Shown here one piece after another: positions 6,963 to 51,097 of a stretch of 51,097 nt of DNA. A program made the translations under genes and the position numbers. Source of the DNA: Planctomycetota bacterium (GTDB lineage Bacteria > Planctomycetota > Planctomycetia > Planctomycetales > Planctomycetaceae); contig QWPB01000023.1 of NCBI GenBank assembly GCA_003671275.1, forward strand, positions 1 through 51,097. The letters run 5' to 3'. Position 1 is the stretch's first letter. Every line of letters begins with the position of its first letter. The notes under the pieces are model-generated. The model was not told the DNA's origin. It was given only the letters and a program-made list of their open reading frames with translations, and searched no databases.

Positions 6963-7904
6963 ATGCGAATCCTTCTGGCCAGCCCGCGGGGCTTCTGCGC
7001 GGGGGTCAATATGGCAATTACGTGCCTGGAGGAGTGCATCCGCGTCTTCGGGACCAGCATCTTTGTTTACCACGAAATTGTTCACAACAAATATGTCGTC
7101 GAGCGATTCATCCGCGAAGGAGTTCGGTTCGTCAATTCCATCGACGAAGTCCCCATCGGCTCAGTGCTGTTATTCAGTGCACATGGAGTCTCTCCCGAAA
7201 TTCGACACAATGCGCGAGCCCGCAACCTGAAAACGATCGATGCCACTTGTCCCCTGGTGACCAAAGTGCATCTCGAAGCGATCAAATATGCGAACGAAGG
7301 GTTCCACATCATCCTGATCGGCCACGAAGGGCACGACGAAGTGATCGGGACCATGGGGGAGGCCCCCCAGAGCATCACGCTAGTCGAATCCGCAGCGGAG
7401 GTGGCGAACCTGAAGTACCCCAAGGAGGCTCGGCTAGCCTACTTGACGCAAACAACGCTGTCCGTGGAAGAGGCCGAGCAAGTGATCTCCGCACTGGAAG
7501 CCCACTTTCCGGGGATCGAACACCCCCCTAAGGAAGACATCTGCTATGCCACGACGAACCGTCAATTTGCCGTGCATGAGTTGATCCAGCAGGCCGATCT
7601 GCTGATTGTCCTCGGGAGCCAGAATAGCTCCAACAGTCGCCGACTTCAGGAAATCGGGTTGCAGACCAACAAGCCAGCCTACCTGATCGACGGCGCTGCG
7701 GAGCTGCGGGAGGAGTGGTTCGACGGTGTCGAGACGGTCACCGTCACTGCTGGAGCCAGTGCACCGGAAGTGGTCGTCGAAGAAACGATCGACTGGATCA
7801 AAAATCGATTCGGAGCCACCACCGAAGAGGTCGTCACCCGGGAGGAAAATGTCCACTTCCAGCTGCCGCGAGAGTTGCGGGTACTGCAGGGGCCCCGGAC
7901 GTAA
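6963..7904 (+). CDS. ispH: 4-hydroxy-3-methylbut-2-enyl diphosphate reductase IspH
   Basis: Last enzyme of the MEP isoprenoid pathway: a [4Fe-4S] enzyme that reduces HMBPP to IPP and DMAPP in the cytoplasm. At 313 residues it is of family length. The three cluster cysteines are present: C12 (RGFCAGV), C96 (DATCPLV) and C194 (EDICYATTNRQ). The substrate-site residues H41, H74, H124 and E126 (GHEGHDE) are also present. The start at 6963 follows GAGG by 6 bases and places the conserved MRILLASPRGFCAGV at the N-terminus; the frame is open upstream to 6936 but without homology. hpnC and hpnD, which consume isoprenoid units, lie 6 kb downstream on the same strand, a metabolic link though not an operon. 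Confidence 0.97.
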   Translation: MRILLASPRGFCAGVNMAITCLEECIRVFGTSIFVYHEIVHNKYVVERFIREGVRFVNSIDEVPIGSVLLFSAHGVSPEIRHNARARNLKTIDATCPLVTKVHLEAIKYANEGFHIILIGHEGHDEVIGTMGEAPQSITLVESAAEVANLKYPKEARLAYLTQTTLSVEEAEQVISALEAHFPGIEHPPKEDICYATTNRQFAVHELIQQADLLIVLGSQNSSNSRRLQEIGLQTNKPAYLIDGAAELREEWFDGVETVTVTAGASAPEVVVEETIDWIKNRFGATTEEVVTREENVHFQLPRELRVLQGPRT

Positions 7905-7993
7905 ATCCCCCCCCCCCTGTGGGTGAGGAGTCCCGCATCACGTGGCAACCCACCACGCCGTGGCTCACTGCGGGTGAATCGAAGGGAGTTAAG

Positions 7994-8965
7994 ATGTCAT
8001 TACTGGCAGGCCATCGGCTCGACGGAACGTCGCTCAATGCCACATCGCGACGGGACTGGTTACGGGCGGTTTGTGCAGCAGCTGCGGGAAGTTCCATATC
8101 GCAGTTGCACGCCGCCGAGCCGGCCACCGGCCCAGATGCCCAAAGAGCCTTTGGCTACCTGGAGGCCATCTGCAAGCTGGGACCGCGGATCAGCGGAACG
8201 GAGCCCATGGCTCTGCAGCAGCAGCTGGTGGGGAAGCACTTTACCGCACTCGGAGCCCGGGTTTCGCTTCAGGAGTTTGACACGCCTCATCCGGTCCACG
8301 GCACGCCTGTTCGAATCCGAAACATGATTGTCGAATGGCACCCCGAAACCACCACTCGTGTTCTGCTGAGTTGTCACTACGACACTCGTCCCCGTCCGGA
8401 TGAGGAGTTACTCCCCTCGCAGCGGAACGGGGTCTTCATCGGGGCGAATGATGGCGGCAGCGGGGTTGCGACCCTGATGGAGATCGGGCACGCGATCCCC
8501 ACGTTGCCGATGTCCGTGGGCGTGGATTTCATATTCTTTGACGCGGAAGAACTGATTTACCAGAAGCCTGGCAAGTTCTTTATTGGCTCGGAATATTTCG
8601 CCCGGCAGTACCGGGATCAACCCCCAGCATACCGCTATCAGGCAGGTGTACTGCTCGACATGGTGGCAGATCTCCGCCCGCAGTTTTACTTCGAGGGGAA
8701 CTCTCTCAGGCTGGCTCCCGATGTGACTCGGAGTGTCTGGGCGGCAGCCAAGGCTGAAGGGGTGAAGGAATTCTTCCCCAAGGTCAAGCACACGGTGATC
8801 GATGACCATCTGGCATTGAATCAGGTGGCTCGGATTCCCACATGCGATGTGATCGATTTCGATTACCCGCACTGGCACAAACGGAACGATTTGCCGGCGG
8901 CGTGCTCAGGAGAGACAATGGCCAAGGTGGCCCGGGTAATGCTCCGCTGGCTGCGTAATTTGTAG
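7994..8965 (+). CDS. Tat-exported M28-family zinc peptidase / glutaminyl cyclase-like protein
   Basis: A 323-residue protein of the M28 metallopeptidase fold, close in layout to glutaminyl-peptide cyclotransferases. A twin-arginine signal is seen at residues 18-41 (SRRDWLRAVCAAAAG, ending LHAA). The metal-site pattern is complete: H128 (CHYDTR), D153 (ANDGGSG), E185/E186 (FFDAEEL), D222 (VLLDMV) and H293 or H295 (PHWHKRND). The ATG at 7994 is preceded by GGGAG and begins the Tat peptide; the open frame extends about 280 bases further upstream through ispH without meaning. Whether it cleaves peptides or cyclises N-terminal glutamine cannot be told from sequence alone. It follows ispH after 89 bases that include an 11-base C run. 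Confidence 0.85.
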   Translation: MSLLAGHRLDGTSLNATSRRDWLRAVCAAAAGSSISQLHAAEPATGPDAQRAFGYLEAICKLGPRISGTEPMALQQQLVGKHFTALGARVSLQEFDTPHPVHGTPVRIRNMIVEWHPETTTRVLLSCHYDTRPRPDEELLPSQRNGVFIGANDGGSGVATLMEIGHAIPTLPMSVGVDFIFFDAEELIYQKPGKFFIGSEYFARQYRDQPPAYRYQAGVLLDMVADLRPQFYFEGNSLRLAPDVTRSVWAAAKAEGVKEFFPKVKHTVIDDHLALNQVARIPTCDVIDFDYPHWHKRNDLPAACSGETMAKVARVMLRWLRNL

Positions 8966-37526: not shown

Positions 37527-37535
37527 GCCACCCAC

Positions 37536-37940
37536 CATCGCGACGGCCAACAACACCTCCACCCCGGCCCAGCTCCCGATACCCCGAAGGGTAAGATCCC
37601 CCGCATCAGCCGCCTCATGGCGTTGGCGATCCACCGCGATGAACTCCTCCGCTCCGGCCAGATCAACAACCAGTCCGAACTGGCCCGGTACGCCCAGATC
37701 ACGCCTGCGAGGTTGACTCAGGTCGTCACGCTCCTGAATCTGGCACCAGACATCCAGGAGGAAGTTCTGTTCCTACCACGGACTACAGAAGGGCGAGGGG
37801 AAGTCAAAGAGAAGGATGTGCGACGGATTGCGATGGCACTGGACTGGAACCTTCAGCGTGTCAGATGGCAGGAGGTTTACACTTGGAACTCGGTAATACA
37901 ATGGTTCGATAAGGAAGCATCAGATGGCCTGAATAATTGA
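37536..37940 (+). pseudogene. 5'-truncated HTH protein, paralogue of the recombinase-associated gene at 49977
   Basis: In-frame from about 37536 the sequence reads GQQHLHPGPAPDTPKGKIPRI, SRLMALAIHRDELLRSGQI, NNQSELARYAQITPARLTQV and EEVLFLPRTTEGRGEVKEKD, and is clearly paralogous to the 132-residue HTH protein at 49977-50375. The first 18 or so residues of the family are missing and replaced by the fused cytochrome-type fragment, and the last 20 residues also diverge. The NQSELARYAQITPARLTQVV segment is the predicted recognition HTH. No ribosome site supports the GTG at 37482. Probably a non-functional copy. Confidence 0.7.
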
Positions 37941-43836: not shown

Positions 43837-46800
43837 ATGGCGATCAAGATTTCATGTGCCTGCGGCAAGCTGCTCTCCGTCAAAGACGAGTTCGCGGGGC
43901 GGAAGGTGAAATGCCCCACATGTCAGCAGACGGTCAACGTGCCCAAACCGGTGGTCCGAGAGGAAACGTTCAAGGAGGAGTGGGGCAAGCAGGAACTTGT
44001 GGAAGACATATTCCTGTTTGATGACAATCCCCTCGACACTTCGCGACGGAATGTCGGAGCAGCAGCAAAACAGCGAGATCCAGTCTCGACCGAGTTCAGA
44101 CTGACGCGAGCCTCGCAAGTCCGAGCGGGGATTTCGTGCTACTTCTTCGGCTTTCTGCTGACCTTCTTCGCGTCGTGCTACGTGCTTATTGCACCCACGC
44201 TGCATCAAGGCGACATCCAGACGCTCTTCCGCATCATTCGCGGATTTGGCTACGTCAGCTTTCTGGCCGAGTTCATCAACACCGTGGGGCTGGGACTCTG
44301 CCTGACGGTACCGCGAACGATGCGGCGGCGTAATATCCTGTTTTTGGCGGTGCTCAGTAGTTTGCTCGGAGTGTTGATCTCTGGCAGGGCACTGTGGAAC
44401 CCGATGTTTCAATTACAAGTCGGACGCTGGCTCCCTCCGATCATGACGCTCACTACTCACCTCTCCTTCTTTCTGTTTGTGCGTGGTCTGGGTGAGTTCA
44501 TCGGGAATGCCGAGATCAAGCGGCAGGCCACTCGTGTCGCCGTGTTCTTGAGTCTGTTCTCGATGAGTTGGTTGGGAATGCTTGGCGGGCATCCCCTCAC
44601 ACCGAACGTGATAGCCCAAGGCGTGACTTTCGTGGTGTTGTTTACCTTAGCGATGCTTGCCGTCTTGATGTATACCGGGATCCTGGGGTTCTTTCAAACG
44701 CTGCGGCTGTTGTCGACGTGTCGTGCCGTCTTACGAAACGATGGCGATCCGGAGGTCACCCACGAGGATCGAAATTCGCCCGCAATTGCTGCTTCATGGC
44801 TGTCACGGTCGGATTTGCTGAAACTCGGTGTGGGAAGCGGCATCGTCGTGTCGGCGTTCTGGGGATGGACTCTACTACCGGGCAAGCCAGCGAACAATAT
44901 CGTGGTAAGACCCCATGACATCGCGCCCAGCGGACCTGCCCTGTCGCACGGTGAACTCGCCAGCAGCGGTCCCGTGAAGCCGCCCCGCTCGGTTCCGCAG
45001 GTGCTGGATGCGGCTCAGCCAGCACTCACCTTGAATGGGAACACCCACGCGAACAAGGGCGTCGCGAATCGTTCGGATGGAACAGAATCGGCAACTGGGG
45101 GGCAACAACCCGCCGCTCCCCCCAAACAACCGGGAGAACCGATCGAGTATCAGCCGTTCTTCCCGGATCGATGGCAGACGAAGAATCAATCGACGAAGTT
45201 GTTCCCCTGGGAGGGCGAACATGTGGTGCTGCTGACGACGACGGCGGACCTCGACGCGAAAACAATGGCCACGTTTCTGAAGCGGCTCGATGTCGGATGG
45301 AAGCTCTATGCCGATCTGGTCGGTCAGTCGCCTCGCTCTTTCAAGCAGCACAACGGAAAGGTCACGTTCGCGTGCGTGCCCGATGCCAGTTTCACCTGCG
45401 GCGCGGGCTGCGGTTACATGGGGATGACCGGGATCGAGATTGCCGGGTTCTATCGCGGCTTTAACGGTGGCCCCGGCGACTACGACACGGTCCTGAAGGA
45501 TCAGGAACTGTTTTTCGATTACTACTTCTACGAGATGGGTCGGAACTACTATCTGTTCGAGGATCGAATCAGCCTGTTCTCCACCGGCTTCCCCGTCGCG
45601 ATGCGACATGTCTGCATGGAAGACGTGAAGAAGTGGAAGGGTCAGGACACCTCAACTCGCGGCTGGATTGATCGCTTTGAAGAGGCGTACTCGAAGTCGA
45701 ACGTACCGTTTGAGCAGGCCTTCGTGCCGTTCGGAGCGAAAGCACCGCTTCGGCTGAATGACATCGACGGCAAGCCGTTCGAGTCTGCGGACCTCACGAT
45801 TCTCTATGCCTCTGGCTTTCTGAAGCTGAGGAAGGACAATGGCGGCAACGAGTGGGTCAAGAAGTTTCACAAGCATCTCTTCGACTGCCCGCCGTCCTCA
45901 CCCGTCGACATCGCGGGGGCCAAAGGGCAGTTACTGAACTGGGTCGTCGCCGCTTCTCTGGCTGCGGAACAGGATTTGTCGACTCTGTTTCGTGATCGGT
46001 GGCGATTCCCGCTCGCTCCCGAAGTCTGGCATTCACTCCAGACGATCGATTGGAAGCAGCCCGGACTGACAGCTGATCATGTGTTCGACACTCTTCCGGT
46101 CGATCACCTGCCGCTGGCGGTCGTCATCCATAGACCGTCGTTCCTCACACCGGAGCGGCGGAAACAGAACCTGCTTGTCGGCGGGACGTTCGAGGGCGCC
46201 GCCGCTGGCCAGTGGAAGTTGAATTCGTTTCGAGCCAACACCGGAGCCGGGGGCATTGCCGGTGGTGAGGCCAAAGAAGGTCAGAAGGCCGCTGCGATTC
46301 GGTCCACGGTCACCGAGGATGCTCATTTCGATCAAACCGTTCCCGTCAAGCCGGGAACTCGCTACTTACTCAGCGGCTGGATCAAGACAAAGGATGTGGC
46401 GATTGAAAAAGTGGATCAGACCTATGGTAAGGCCGGAGCCACCCTCTCGATCTGGGGCGGCTACGAACATAGTCGTTCCTTGACCGGTACCAACGAGTGG
46501 ACCTACGTGACGCTGCTCTTCGATGCAAGGGACCGATCTGAAGTGACCGTGTGCGCGAGGCTGGGCTACTGGTATAGCGTCGCCACAGGCGAAGCCTGGT
46601 TCGACGACCTCTGTCTGATCCCGATAGGTGAGAGTCCACAACGGTCCTCGCCCCCACCCCCAGCTGCCACGATCACGACCAACACAGACTGGAAGGGCTG
46701 GCCGAAGGACACTCCAGCACCAGCCATTGCCCCCTTCACTGCCGACCAAGCCAAGCAATATCAGGAGGCCTGGGCGAAGCATCTCGGAGTGCCGGTCGAA

Positions 46801-48651
46801 TACACCAACTCGATCGGCATGAAGTTCCGACTTATTCCGCCGGGTGAGTACCTGAGAGGCTGTAGTCCACAAGAGATCTTGGCGGGAGTCAATGCGACTG
46901 ATCCTTACTGGGGGCAATTCCTTCGCAGTTCAGGACCGCAACACAAGGTCATCATCACACAGCCGCTGTACCTTGGCTCGTACGAGGTCACACAGGAAGC
47001 GTACTCGCAAGTCATGGGGAACAATCCCGCACACTTTGCTCCGATGGGGCCAGGGAGGGGCGTGGTCGCTGGCAAGGAGACGGGCAAGTTTCCGGTGGAG
47101 CGTGTCAGTTGGAATGACTCCGTGGACTTCTGCGTGAAGCTCGGCGATCGTGAGAAACTGAAGCCGTGCTATTCGCGAGAGAGAGATGCGGTGACGCTAC
47201 GAGTCGGCAATGGGTATCGCCTGCCGACAGAAGCCGAGTGGGAGTTTGCATGCCGAGCGGGCACAAGCACCACTTTCTGGTATGGGAACTCGGTCGATGA
47301 GTACGCGCAGGTTGGCCGCCACTATCTGAAAAGGGAGCAAGGCCGAACGCATGAGGTTGGCGAGTTGAAAGCCAATCCGTTCGGCTTGTTCGACAGTCAC
47401 GGCAACGTCTGGGAGTTCGCCCAGGACGGTTGGTCTTCGACGACTTACAGGCAGTTCATCAGCGTTCCTGGAATTGATCCGAGTTTCCCACCGTCGGGCA
47501 GCAGTTTGCGCCCGATTCGCGGTGGAAGTTGGATGGACGTGCCAACGACCTCGACTTCAGGCTCTCGATTAGCCCATGGCCCCACAGATCGCAGTTTTAT
47601 CAATGTGGGTTTCCGCGTGGCCTTGTCTGTCGATGCTGTAAAGGCGGCTCTGGCCAATCCCGTGCAGGCTATCCCTCCGGCCAAGGCAGACAACGATCAG
47701 GCAGTCACTACATTGAAGGCTGCAACTCGCGGATTCACGAGCGTCGCATTCAGTCCGGATGGAAAGCGGCTCGTGTCGAGCAGCATCGAGCGAGCGGTCA
47801 AGGTGTGGGACATCGCGAGCAGCCAGGAGCAAGTTACTGCGATTGGCGGATTCTGTGCCGTGTACTCTCCGGACGGGGCACGATTGGTTTCGGCGGGGCC
47901 GGGTAACTCGGTGAAGATATGGAATGCATCCACCGGGCAGGCAGTGCTGACGCTCCCAGGGCACACCGGCGACGTTCGCAGTGTCGCATTCAGCGAGGAT
48001 GGCAAGCAGGTGGCATCGGCGAGCGCGGATCACTCCGGACCAACCGGACCAATTTTAACCCACTGGCTGGAACATGCATCGAACCGGGATCGGACCAACC
48101 CCATAGACATAGGGTTTGGTCCGATCACCTCCGGTCCATCGGGACAACTCAATTTGGTCCGGTCTGTCTCGATTGGTCCGATGAAGAGATTGGGGGAGTC
48201 GTCGACTCGTCCTCGACTTCAGCTCGGTGACTCGGCGGCGACTCGCTCGGTGTACCAGAGATCGAACTCGATCTCAGCCAGTACTCAGGAGATGACAGAA
48301 GAGACCTACACAACTCTCGCCTCTGCTCTCCAGATGTATCTGGCCGACTCCGGGCCTCAGACAAAACTGATGCGAACAGCAGCCCAGGAATGGCTGTCGG
48401 CCTGGGATCGAAGGAATTCTCCCCAGGAGATCGAGATCGAAATCGACTCGATTCTCATTCCAAGCGGTTCATCGATCGCCAGTTTTGGCATGCTGGCCCC
48501 CAAGTTGACCGTTGGGATCGATGACAAACAAGAAACCAACCCGAAAGCTGATCCCGCCAATCGTGTGAGCCTGGGGAATCCATTTCATTCGTCATACACA
48601 TACGGCCCGTTCTCGATCTCGTCCGTAACCGAGTATGAATTTGCCCGTTGA
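43837..48651 (+). CDS. Giant zinc-ribbon/membrane/FGE-sulfatase-like/WD40 protein with aberrant C-terminus
   Basis: The 1604-codon frame has domains in order. A zinc ribbon (C7, C9, C26, C29) is followed by several membrane helices (about 98-345). A domain at about 450-605 is reminiscent of a gluzincin-like peptidase but without HExxH (YEMGRNYY in its place). A carbohydrate-binding-like beta domain (about 778-930) precedes an FGE/SUMF1-type domain (about 985-1270: NSIGMKFRLIPPGEYLRG, RLPTEAEWEFACRAG, RGGSWMDV). The catalytic cysteines of true formylglycine-generating enzymes are absent. Two to three WD40 repeats (1290-1398) stop abruptly at VASASADH (about 48030); the last 205 codons are unlike any WD40 and overlap a GGACCAA repeat cluster, so they look like a fusion to foreign DNA. 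The intact gene probably encoded a full propeller. Confidence 0.8.
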   Translation: MAIKISCACGKLLSVKDEFAGRKVKCPTCQQTVNVPKPVVREETFKEEWGKQELVEDIFLFDDNPLDTSRRNVGAAAKQRDPVSTEFRLTRASQVRAGISCYFFGFLLTFFASCYVLIAPTLHQGDIQTLFRIIRGFGYVSFLAEFINTVGLGLCLTVPRTMRRRNILFLAVLSSLLGVLISGRALWNPMFQLQVGRWLPPIMTLTTHLSFFLFVRGLGEFIGNAEIKRQATRVAVFLSLFSMSWLGMLGGHPLTPNVIAQGVTFVVLFTLAMLAVLMYTGILGFFQTLRLLSTCRAVLRNDGDPEVTHEDRNSPAIAASWLSRSDLLKLGVGSGIVVSAFWGWTLLPGKPANNIVVRPHDIAPSGPALSHGELASSGPVKPPRSVPQVLDAAQPALTLNGNTHANKGVANRSDGTESATGGQQPAAPPKQPGEPIEYQPFFPDRWQTKNQSTKLFPWEGEHVVLLTTTADLDAKTMATFLKRLDVGWKLYADLVGQSPRSFKQHNGKVTFACVPDASFTCGAGCGYMGMTGIEIAGFYRGFNGGPGDYDTVLKDQELFFDYYFYEMGRNYYLFEDRISLFSTGFPVAMRHVCMEDVKKWKGQDTSTRGWIDRFEEAYSKSNVPFEQAFVPFGAKAPLRLNDIDGKPFESADLTILYASGFLKLRKDNGGNEWVKKFHKHLFDCPPSSPVDIAGAKGQLLNWVVAASLAAEQDLSTLFRDRWRFPLAPEVWHSLQTIDWKQPGLTADHVFDTLPVDHLPLAVVIHRPSFLTPERRKQNLLVGGTFEGAAAGQWKLNSFRANTGAGGIAGGEAKEGQKAAAIRSTVTEDAHFDQTVPVKPGTRYLLSGWIKTKDVAIEKVDQTYGKAGATLSIWGGYEHSRSLTGTNEWTYVTLLFDARDRSEVTVCARLGYWYSVATGEAWFDDLCLIPIGESPQRSSPPPPAATITTNTDWKGWPKDTPAPAIAPFTADQAKQYQEAWAKHLGVPVEYTNSIGMKFRLIPPGEYLRGCSPQEILAGVNATDPYWGQFLRSSGPQHKVIITQPLYLGSYEVTQEAYSQVMGNNPAHFAPMGPGRGVVAGKETGKFPVERVSWNDSVDFCVKLGDREKLKPCYSRERDAVTLRVGNGYRLPTEAEWEFACRAGTSTTFWYGNSVDEYAQVGRHYLKREQGRTHEVGELKANPFGLFDSHGNVWEFAQDGWSSTTYRQFISVPGIDPSFPPSGSSLRPIRGGSWMDVPTTSTSGSRLAHGPTDRSFINVGFRVALSVDAVKAALANPVQAIPPAKADNDQAVTTLKAATRGFTSVAFSPDGKRLVSSSIERAVKVWDIASSQEQVTAIGGFCAVYSPDGARLVSAGPGNSVKIWNASTGQAVLTLPGHTGDVRSVAFSEDGKQVASASADHSGPTGPILTHWLEHASNRDRTNPIDIGFGPITSGPSGQLNLVRSVSIGPMKRLGESSTRPRLQLGDSAATRSVYQRSNSISASTQEMTEETYTTLASALQMYLADSGPQTKLMRTAAQEWLSAWDRRNSPQEIEIEIDSILIPSGSSIASFGMLAPKLTVGIDDKQETNPKADPANRVSLGNPFHSSYTYGPFSISSVTEYEFAR
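48035..48182. repeat. Cluster of inverted GGACCAA motifs around a hairpin
   Basis: CCGGACCAA occurs twice in tandem (48035-48043, 48044-48052) and TCGGACCAA once (48090-48098). The reverse form TTGGTCCG follows at 48116-48123, 48154-48161 and 48173-48180, with a shorter CCGGTCC at 48131-48137. Direct and reverse copies lie roughly symmetrically about position 48107. It begins where WD40 homology of the 1604-codon frame ends. Confidence 0.7.
48088..48126. repeat. Strong hairpin with 14-bp stem at the centre of the GGACCAA cluster
   Basis: GATCGGACCAA plus CCC (48088-48101) pairs with GGG-T-TTGGTCCGATC (48112-48126), giving 14 pairs with one bulged T and a 10-base loop. No T-run follows on either strand, so it is not a simple terminator. 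It could be a transposon end, recombination site or protein-binding palindrome. Confidence 0.7.
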
Positions 48652-48786: not shown

Positions 48787-49353
48787 GGGATTGTGCCTTT
48801 GAGTTGAGAGAGACCAAGCTTGGAAACGGTACGACTGAATGCAGTCGCAGGCCCCGCTGCCAGAGCGTTCAGAACCACCCGTCGTATCCGCAACAGGCTG
48901 GCTCTATCCATGAAATGGCAGTCCGGTTCGAATCTGTCCGATCATTCTTCTGATTTCTTCGTGAAAGACGCGAAGCTGCATTTGGGAATTGGCCTTGGCT
49001 GTTTCGTAACGACAATTCTATCAATGGATTGCGATCGCCACTCTGTTGCAGTTGCGACAACAGATTTGTCCGGACTGGTTCACCCATCCTGACAAACCGA
49101 ATTCGTTTGTGTTCACTTGAACAGTAGATTGGTCACATGTACACTCGTGGTGTTTGGAGCCATTTGTCGCAGGTGTCACGTGTCTAAATTCGAACTTTCG
49201 ACCTTGCCGTGGGGGCCAGGAAGAGGCTGTCAGCGTGGGTGTGGTTGTCGTGGAATGTGCAGGTGGTTGCGGGAAGCATCACGGTCGTTGAACTGGTGGA
49301 AGAGGCTTGCGACTGGACAGAGCAAGTGCGGGTCACGGAGCGGACAGGGGTGC
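48787..49353. other. Apparently non-coding stretch before the recombinase relic
   Basis: About 570 bases with no credible gene on either strand. The catalytic domain of the serine recombinase, which should precede the relic at 49354, is not found here in any frame. A weak TGTTG...CAACA symmetry near 49042-49060 is the only structure noted. Confidence 0.5.
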
Positions 49354-49980
49354 GGATGTGGGAATTGCGATTGCGCGATGTCCCACACGTACACATGCAA
49401 GGGAAATCGACGCTACCGGTACTACCTCTGTGGCCACGCCCAAAGGAATGGACGCGACCAGTGCCCGGCTCCTTCGGTTCCCGCCGGTGAGATCGAACGG
49501 TTCGTGGTCGACCAGATCCACCAGATCGGTACCGATCCTAAGCTGATCACCGAAACCATTCGACAGGTCCGACTCCAATCCGAAGACGGCATCACTCACT
49601 TGGCCGAAGAACGCACCTCGCTCCAACAGCAACTGCGAGCTCACCACGCCGACTTGCAGGCGACCGCCAGCCTTCCGAGTAGCACCAAGCGTGTCTCACA
49701 ACTGGCCGACCTGCAGGAACGAATCGGCACCACCGAAAGCCGCCTGACTGAGATCGACAACGAACTCGCCGCACTGCAATCCAACCAGATCGACGAGTCC
49801 GAAGTCACCCGACTGCTGGCCGAGTTCCACCAGACATGGGAATCCCTCGCCCCCCGCGACCAAGCCCGAGTCATCGAACTCCTGATCGAACGCATCGACT
49901 ACCACGGCCAACAAGGCCAACTCTCCCTTACCTTTCGCCCCAGCGGCATCCAAGCCATTACCCAGGAGACCGCCATATGA
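49354..49980 (+). pseudogene. C-terminal remnant of a large serine recombinase
   Basis: From about 49357 the frame (open from 49117) reads CGNCDCAMSHTYTCKGNRRYRYYLCGHAQRNG, the recombinase zinc-beta-ribbon of large serine recombinases. It continues with PAPSVPAGEIERFVVDQI, a coiled coil (LAEERTSLQQQLRAHHADLQ, LQERIGTTESRLTEIDNELAALQ) and DQARVIELLIERIDYHG near the end. The N-terminal resolvase domain with its catalytic Ser and the recombinase domain are absent, so it cannot cut DNA. Its TGA overlaps the ATG of the HTH gene (ATGA, 49977-49980), the normal arrangement of the intact two-gene unit. Confidence 0.8.
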
Positions 49981-50375
49981 ACATCCCGATCACCATCACC
50001 CGCGAATTCCACACCACCCGCCGCCAAGACGGCCGCCAGCACCTCCGCCCCGGCCCCGCCCCAGAAACCCCCAAGGGAAAAATCCCCCGCATCAGCCGCC
50101 TCATGGCGTTGGCCATCCACTGCCACGAACTGCTCCGCTCCGGCCAAGTCTCCAACCAATCCGAACTCGCCCGGTACGCGAACATCACGCCTGCCAGAAT
50201 GACCCAGATCCTAACCCTCCTCAATCTGGCCTCAGACATCCAGGAGGAACTCCTGTTCCTGCCGAGAACGACAACTGGGCGTGGGGAGGTTCAGGAGAAG
50301 GATGTCCGCAAGATCGCGATGGAGTTGGATTTGGGGAAGCAGCGGGAGATGTGGTCAAAGGTGCAGAGGGAGTAA
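49977..50375 (+). CDS. Recombinase-associated HTH protein
   Basis: A 132-residue protein coupled to the recombinase remnant by an ATGA overlap. After a short N-terminus (MNIPITITREFHTTRRQDG) come a proline-rich segment, ISRLMALAIHCHELLRSGQ and the predicted helix-turn-helix (NQSELARYANITPARMTQIL). The protein ends LPRTTTGRGEVQEKDVRKIAMELDLG... It is probably a DNA-binding partner of the recombinase; the role is inferred from gene order. The stop codon (50373-50375) lies inside the degenerate first CRISPR repeat. A 5'-truncated paralogue lies at 37536-37940 in the same orientation. This copy appears intact. Confidence 0.75.
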   Translation: MNIPITITREFHTTRRQDGRQHLRPGPAPETPKGKIPRISRLMALAIHCHELLRSGQVSNQSELARYANITPARMTQILTLLNLASDIQEELLFLPRTTTGRGEVQEKDVRKIAMELDLGKQREMWSKVQRE

Positions 50376-51097
50376 GAAATGGGGCCGGGCTTATTCAGCC
50401 CGGAGAATGCCAGCCGGGCCGCCAAGGTCGCTAAGGTGGCCACGACCGCTTCAATGGGGCCGGGCTTATTCAGCCCGGAGAATCTGGGACCGGCTGTCCT
50501 GCTCGGGTGCAATGCTCGGCGCTTCAATGGGGCCGGGCTTATTCAGCCCGGAGAATCCGACCAGGCTGTTCGGCTGTGGCGAGTGCAGACCGGCTTCAAT
50601 GGGGCCGGGCTTATTCAGCCCGGAGAATAAAGGCTTTGGTTGGTCCTGAGAAGAAAGCTAAGGCTTCAATGGGGCCGGGCTTATTCAGCCCGGAGAATCT
50701 CGCAGTTATTTCGGACTCATCAGGCGGGCTACTGGCTTCAATGGGGCCGGGCTTATTCAGCCCGGAGAATAAATGGCTCTGGAATCCAAAGCACGAGAAA
50801 TGGGGTTGCTTCAATGGGGCCGGGCTTATTCAGCCCGGAGAATCACAGCGCGCCGATTGAATCAGAAACTCTATCTCGGCGCTTCAATGGGGCCGGGCTT
50901 ATTCAGCCCGGAGAATCTTGTATATGTAGTCATCACTAACCACCTTGCTGGAGCTTCAATGGGGCCGGGCTTATTCAGCCCGGAGAATTAGATGGAGGAT
51001 TGGCACGATGAAAATGAATGGCGTGGCTTCAATGGGGCCGGGCTTATTCAGCCCGGAGAATTGTGGAGTCCGGCTTGACGTGTCTTTTCAGGAGGAC
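50373..51097 (-). CRISPR. CRISPR array, 10 repeats of 36 bp visible, continuing beyond the right edge
   Basis: Read on the plus strand the repeat starts GCTTCAATGGGG, holds a 7-bp stem CCGGGCT/AGCCCGG with loop TATTC, and ends AGAAT. Copies start at 50373 (degenerate), 50448, 50521, 50593, 50663, 50735, 50808, 50881, 50953 and 51026. The nine complete spacers are 39, 37, 36, 34, 36, 37, 37, 36 and 37 bp; a tenth of at least 36 bp runs to the window end. All repeats except the first are identical. The first has five mismatches in its first five bases, as expected of the leader-distal end. On the minus strand the repeat ends CCCCATTGAAGC, like the ATTGAAA(C/G) 3' handle of many Class 1 repeats, so I infer minus-strand transcription from a leader right of the window. 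No cas gene is in view, so the type is not settled. Confidence 0.96.

Follow-up and report, generated by a model that had tools for sequence, protein, structure and literature searches.

The closest described counterparts of the locus presented here come from a Streptococcus phage, a Sulfolobus plasmid, the PICIs, and IncQ RSF1010. In the record of Streptococcus phage Sfi21, a segment annotated as 'origin of replication, 302 bp non-coding region, phage inhibitory sequence' overlaps the 3' end of the primase gene; this element is described as an infection-activated origin that confers phage-encoded resistance (PMC6356513). The Sulfolobus plasmid pRN1 carries, 3' of its Prim-Pol-helicase gene, a stem-loop of ~100 nt that replication requires and that can be relocated. 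Conserved in structure but divergent in sequence, it has been noted in phage BIP-1 too (PMC4234260, PMC3869888). PICIs have an origin with two iteron sets directly 3' of pri-rep (PMC6092414), and the oriV of RSF1010, with ssiA and ssiB, brings iterons and priming hairpins together with the RepA helicase and a dedicated primase (PMC4234260).

Here we describe a segment of the window (the whole stretch of 51,097 nucleotides that was analysed) that is probably an orphan copy of a prim-pol-type phage origin, the type associated with a Prim-Pol/PriCT_1/AAA_25 replicase; we infer origin function from its position, its layout, and precedent. The segment and its parts are as follows.

48035-48183, no strand: 149-bp iteron and hairpin module, matching G000:C95:8358-8506 at 91%, with homologous clusters similarly placed
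48036-48052, + strand: two tandem iterons CGGACCAA with a 9-bp period, unchanged between both copies
48088-48126: central hairpin, made up of an iteron (48091-48098), stem, short loop, and inverted iteron (48116-48123)
48154-48161, - strand: inverted iteron TTGGTCCG
48173-48180, - strand: inverted iteron TTGGTCCG, at the module's right end

Exact CGGACCAA units start at 48036, 48045, and 48091 on the plus strand and at 48116, 48154, and 48173 on the minus strand. The whole window holds nine of them against 2.3 expected, and six of these fall within 145 bp; in 60 windows simulated with a Markov-1 model, at most two fell into any 150-bp stretch. The hairpin, which forms the GC-rich centre of the module, has 15-nt arms that are 93% complementary with 9 nt between them, and the 149-bp stretch folds far more stably than its shuffles (z -5.0/-5.4). 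A GGACCAA inverted-repeat cluster with a hairpin had been claimed by the sequence-only reading, and the six exact units and the 15-nt arms confirm it.

When 951 bp around the junction were used as a query against the window's own assembly (5.03 Mb in 198 contigs), a match turned up in one other place, G000:C95:8358-8506, where query positions 86-234 alone (window 48035-48183) were matched. The limits of the module at both ends are the outermost iterons, and the flanking DNA on both sides is unrelated between the two copies. They differ at 13 of 149 bases, and all of these differences lie outside the 48 iteron positions (P 0.0049); on this comparison the iterons look constrained, spared by mutation, an observation of modest weight with only two copies compared. 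The structure is weaker in the window copy, with a fold energy of -66.6 kcal/mol against -77.9 kcal/mol for the C95 copy and three base pairs of the C95 structure missing.

C95 is a phage-like contig of 18.7 kb with genes for a terminase large subunit, a Sak4-like annealing protein, a D5 primase/helicase, DUF669, HNH, a ParB-methylase, and dGTP_diPhyd. Its copy of the module spans the last codons and stop of a gene for a 648-aa replicase with Prim-Pol (E 1.3e-35), PriCT_1 (E 2.2e-17), and AAA_25 (E 5.2e-17) domains; Pfam finds no DNA-binding domain in the C-terminus of this replicase. As far as sequence comparison goes, this copy at the replicase gene 3' end is the intact counterpart of the window module, next to which neither a replicase gene nor remnants of other C95 phage genes were found. 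The helicase gene of the C95 phage also contains a Hint/LAGLIDADG intein (L020:16494-18689), and a similar stretch, VRLLNSTPLG.VTSERQ, occurs in both its terminase fragment (L020:3271-4275) and its HNH endonuclease (7279-8166), which suggests a domain swap or intron-like spread.

The position of the C95 copy recurs among related replicase genes. Of the 170 family genomes, 57 contain homologues of the C95 replicase, and replicase loci were scanned blindly, in 150-bp windows, for 8-mers repeated in direct or inverted orientation. In 21 of 26 loci (C95 and 20 others), the densest cluster lay at most 300 bp from the replicase stop, where chance would give a mean of 15% each (binomial P 1.8e-13; the loci are related by descent, and P overstates their independence, the placement itself being unaffected). 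In the other five loci the top cluster was far from the stop. Near-stop clusters scoring at least 20 occurred at 18 of 26 replicase loci versus 3 of 45 control loci (P 4e-8), and the most stable fold for its GC was also near the stop in 18 of the 22 loci tested. As a positive control, the top windows of the scan in a 16.7-kb stretch of Sfi21 fell within the annotated origin. What recurs is a layout, with sequences that differ by locus: two to four iterons at 8-10 bp spacing, inverted iterons, and then an iteron-bearing hairpin. The iteron cores in the related loci are often GGGAC, GCGAC, or CGGAC, and the hairpin loops are AT-rich, for example TTAA, TTTA, or TATA. The C95 copy and the 20 other loci share the hallmark of pRN1-, Sfi21-, and PICI-type origins, a cluster of direct and inverted repeats or a large stem-loop directly behind the 3' end of the replicase gene; the window copy has the module without the replicase. 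Among six other phages with a related Prim-Pol, a strong cluster was found at the replicase end in MW202867, HeadNerd, and R23.1 and was absent in the other three; a Prim-Pol query against viral contigs, in a search that reaches close relatives only, gave no relatives. This placement of similar clusters makes an iteron or origin array the best reading of the window module, and bears out the earlier suggestion of an initiator-binding array as far as sequence can.

The module sequence itself is far less widespread. Across the 170 genomes of the family, a covariance model recovered the two copies and nothing else, and BLAST and pattern searches gave no further copies; viral contigs, phages, and plasmids searched with the module sequence gave no match. 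Single CGGACCAA...TTGGTCCG pairs in relatives were at control level, and among the matches listed for tandem CCGGACCAA across bacterial genomes, those inspected were unrelated repeats (L164, a proline-rich coding repeat, and L165). Because these searches found the module sequence nowhere outside the assembly, only its layout can be called conserved. Separately, relatives carry arrays in which a 9-bp unit, (ATGGGACNN)n, is inverted about a short loop (L094, L095, L216-L245; e.g. G079:C7:35246-35330)—up to ~150 per genome in G076 and G079, and fewer in G144, G146, and G147. They are mostly intergenic, often between convergent gene ends, and resemble the GGGAC iterons of phage origins; a reversed control pattern gave no matches, and the papers searched did not contain their exact unit strings. 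These arrays were dropped as an answer for the window module, there being none in this genome.

On its left the module adjoins a host gene that it interrupts, and to its right, past the tail of the open frame, lie remnants of a mobile element.

43837-48034, + strand: truncated gene with a membrane N-terminus, an FGE-sulfatase domain, and WD40 repeats that break off at SADH, within the third blade (Pfam, sequence)
48184-48651, + strand: tail of the open frame, coding-like by its coding score, with a possible separate ORF from ATG 48292 and no relatives found
49357-49980, + strand: large serine integrase remnant with zinc ribbon and coiled coil, its catalytic domain missing (Pfam Zn_ribbon_recom E 5e-11; phrog_95 integrase E 2e-22)
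49980-50375, + strand: small recombinase-associated ORF beside the integrase remnant (phrog_14161 'recombinase' E 2.4e-13)

The entire open frame, 43837-48651, encodes 1604 aa, with Pfam matches to FGE-sulfatase (E 1.5e-34) and WD40 (E 6.8e-19) of which the latter ends at residue 1400. The third WD40 blade stops mid-blade at ...GKQVASASADH (codons to 48033), one base short of the cluster start at 48035; the propeller is indeed interrupted exactly where the cluster begins, as had been noticed from the sequence. To the right, the integrase remnant and its neighbouring ORF lie 1.2-2.2 kb from the module, and the stretch before the remnant (49117-49356) does not score as coding. A signal-peptide-like protein start (MFAVRSLLMVTVVSLASFLPVSGLVRAEEPS...) on the minus strand at 48786-48595 ends early after 64 codons and is another sign of decayed DNA adjoining the module. 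The recombinase-associated ORF occurs in the window in two copies, 37528-37836 and 50014-50322, with 80% identical DNA, and the copy at 37528-37836 is without an adjoining recombinase gene. Further right still, a CRISPR array at 50379-51061 has ten 36-nt repeats and nine spacers; no cas genes are in view by the array up to the contig end at 51097, the match to Rfam CRISPR-DR16 was below threshold, and the spacers did not match contig C95.

Several other explanations of the junction deserve to be weighed. One could take the gene as intact, with the cluster as part of its coding sequence and the tail as genuine protein; we consider this highly improbable. The frame does stay open from the H of SADH for 206 codons, to the TGA at 48649-48651, and a frame of 205 codons stays open in 0.08% of shuffles. 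The 155 codons past the module, read in the WD40 frame, have a coding score of 0.115, which is above 97.5% of wrong frames and in the low 14% of true frames, and the sequence-only reading of a tail open by chance is therefore unlikely. Against a genuine tail, the WD40 homology breaks off within a blade before three repeats are complete, the phage module makes up the tail's first 50 codons, and no orthologue with the same C-terminus—the finding that would have marked a real protein tail—was found in 170 family genomes, phages, or plasmids. Homologues of the tail were likewise missing from the PDB; a single weak match (G007, E 0.0015, 26% identity) was judged to be chance, and a single-sequence structure model was poor (pLDDT 38). 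By descent the tail does not belong to the WD40 protein, and it may be a small element gene from ATG 48292 that is in frame by coincidence. A mis-assembly that joined phage and chromosome at a repeat is the least probable account: the draft assembly has 198 contigs and the junction coincides with repeated sequence, but the two copies differ, as a single collapsed repeat would not, and the DNA on the right is not C95 phage sequence.

The module could also be a miniature mobile palindrome, MITE- or REP-like, inserted once at the primase gene end and once in the WD40 gene by a transposase acting in trans. Its palindromic fold and its sharp limits at terminal inverted units, with unrelated flanks at both sites, fit this proposal; a count of only two in 5 Mb, with no copy in any of 169 relatives, does not, and neither does the lack of a target-site duplication at the window or C95 copy. 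Neither the GTAG nor the CGTC tag of the known REP superfamilies (PMC3733652) is present on either strand of the 149 bp, and clusters of the same layout and other sequence in homologous genes mark the primase 3' end as the native site; overall, we regard the palindrome as unlikely, while giving it some weight. An integron attC was rejected as well, with no GTTRRRY core seen by eye. A transcription terminator or structured 3' RNA is very unlikely. Both copies lie at a gene 3' end and have a stable RNA fold, yet there is no T-run and no terminator-like site within 48035-48183, no Rfam family was matched, a terminator needs no multiple iterons spread across 150 bp, and the corresponding stretch of Sfi21 carries an origin annotation. 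As for the proposal that a mobile-element end truncated the gene, the truncation at foreign mobile-element DNA stands; a transposon end is not supported, because what the two copies have in common is the entire 149-bp cluster, set in different DNA to left and right, and there is neither a target duplication nor a transposase nearby.

If the module is a phage origin, we can outline how it would work and how it came to its present place. The C95-type replicase would bind the repeated CGGACCAA/GGGACA iterons, perhaps via its C-terminal region; its RepA-like helicase domain would open the DNA and expose the central hairpin, at which the Prim-Pol domain would prime. In the simplest history, DNA of an origin-carrying phage or integrative element came into the WD40 gene and degenerated, and the remainder of the gene went with it. 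The window module is cut off from a replicase, with a truncated gene on one side and a decayed integrase on the other. We therefore take it as most likely a relic at the edge of mobile-element DNA, and the WD40 gene as broken when that DNA arrived or was rearranged. The decay of an ordinary prophage leaves the exact limits unaccounted for, and their position at the outermost iterons suggests that the module was mobile as a single unit. There is also a slim chance that the chromosomal module is alive, either as an origin retained or captured by the host or a satellite that binds and uses up the replicase of incoming C95-like phages (like Sfi21 Per) or as part of a small satellite that replicates on phage proteins; such a decoy or satellite would agree with iterons that stay intact while the structure around them decays.

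Beyond this locus, iterons with an AT-looped hairpin at the 3' end of Prim-Pol/AAA_25 genes provide candidate replication origins for planctomycete phages and islands, a large group that has gone unstudied. The probable orphan in the window indicates that such an origin can occur alone, with exact limits, within a host gene—should orphan origins work as decoys, they would amount to a phage defence that needs no gene.

Like Sfi21, the C95 locus has direct and inverted repeats at the primase gene 3' end in a module containing a Prim-Pol gene; unlike here, Sfi21 has GTAAC-type repeats around an AT-rich stretch, its primase and Prim-Pol are separate genes, and its origin function is on record where ours is predicted only. 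The structured putative origin 3' of a Prim-Pol-helicase gene, with layout kept while sequence diverges, is also the arrangement of pRN1; however, pRN1 has an SF3 helicase and no iterons, in contrast to AAA_25 and iterons here. Iteron sets directly 3' of the initiator gene are shared with PICIs and SaPIs, which differ in their initiator and in an AT-rich origin centre, whereas the module has a GC-rich hairpin and lacks two iteron sets flanking an AT-rich region. Finally, RSF1010 has the same combination of iterons, priming hairpins, a RepA-type helicase, and a primase, though its proteins are three separate ones and its origin layout differs from the one described here.
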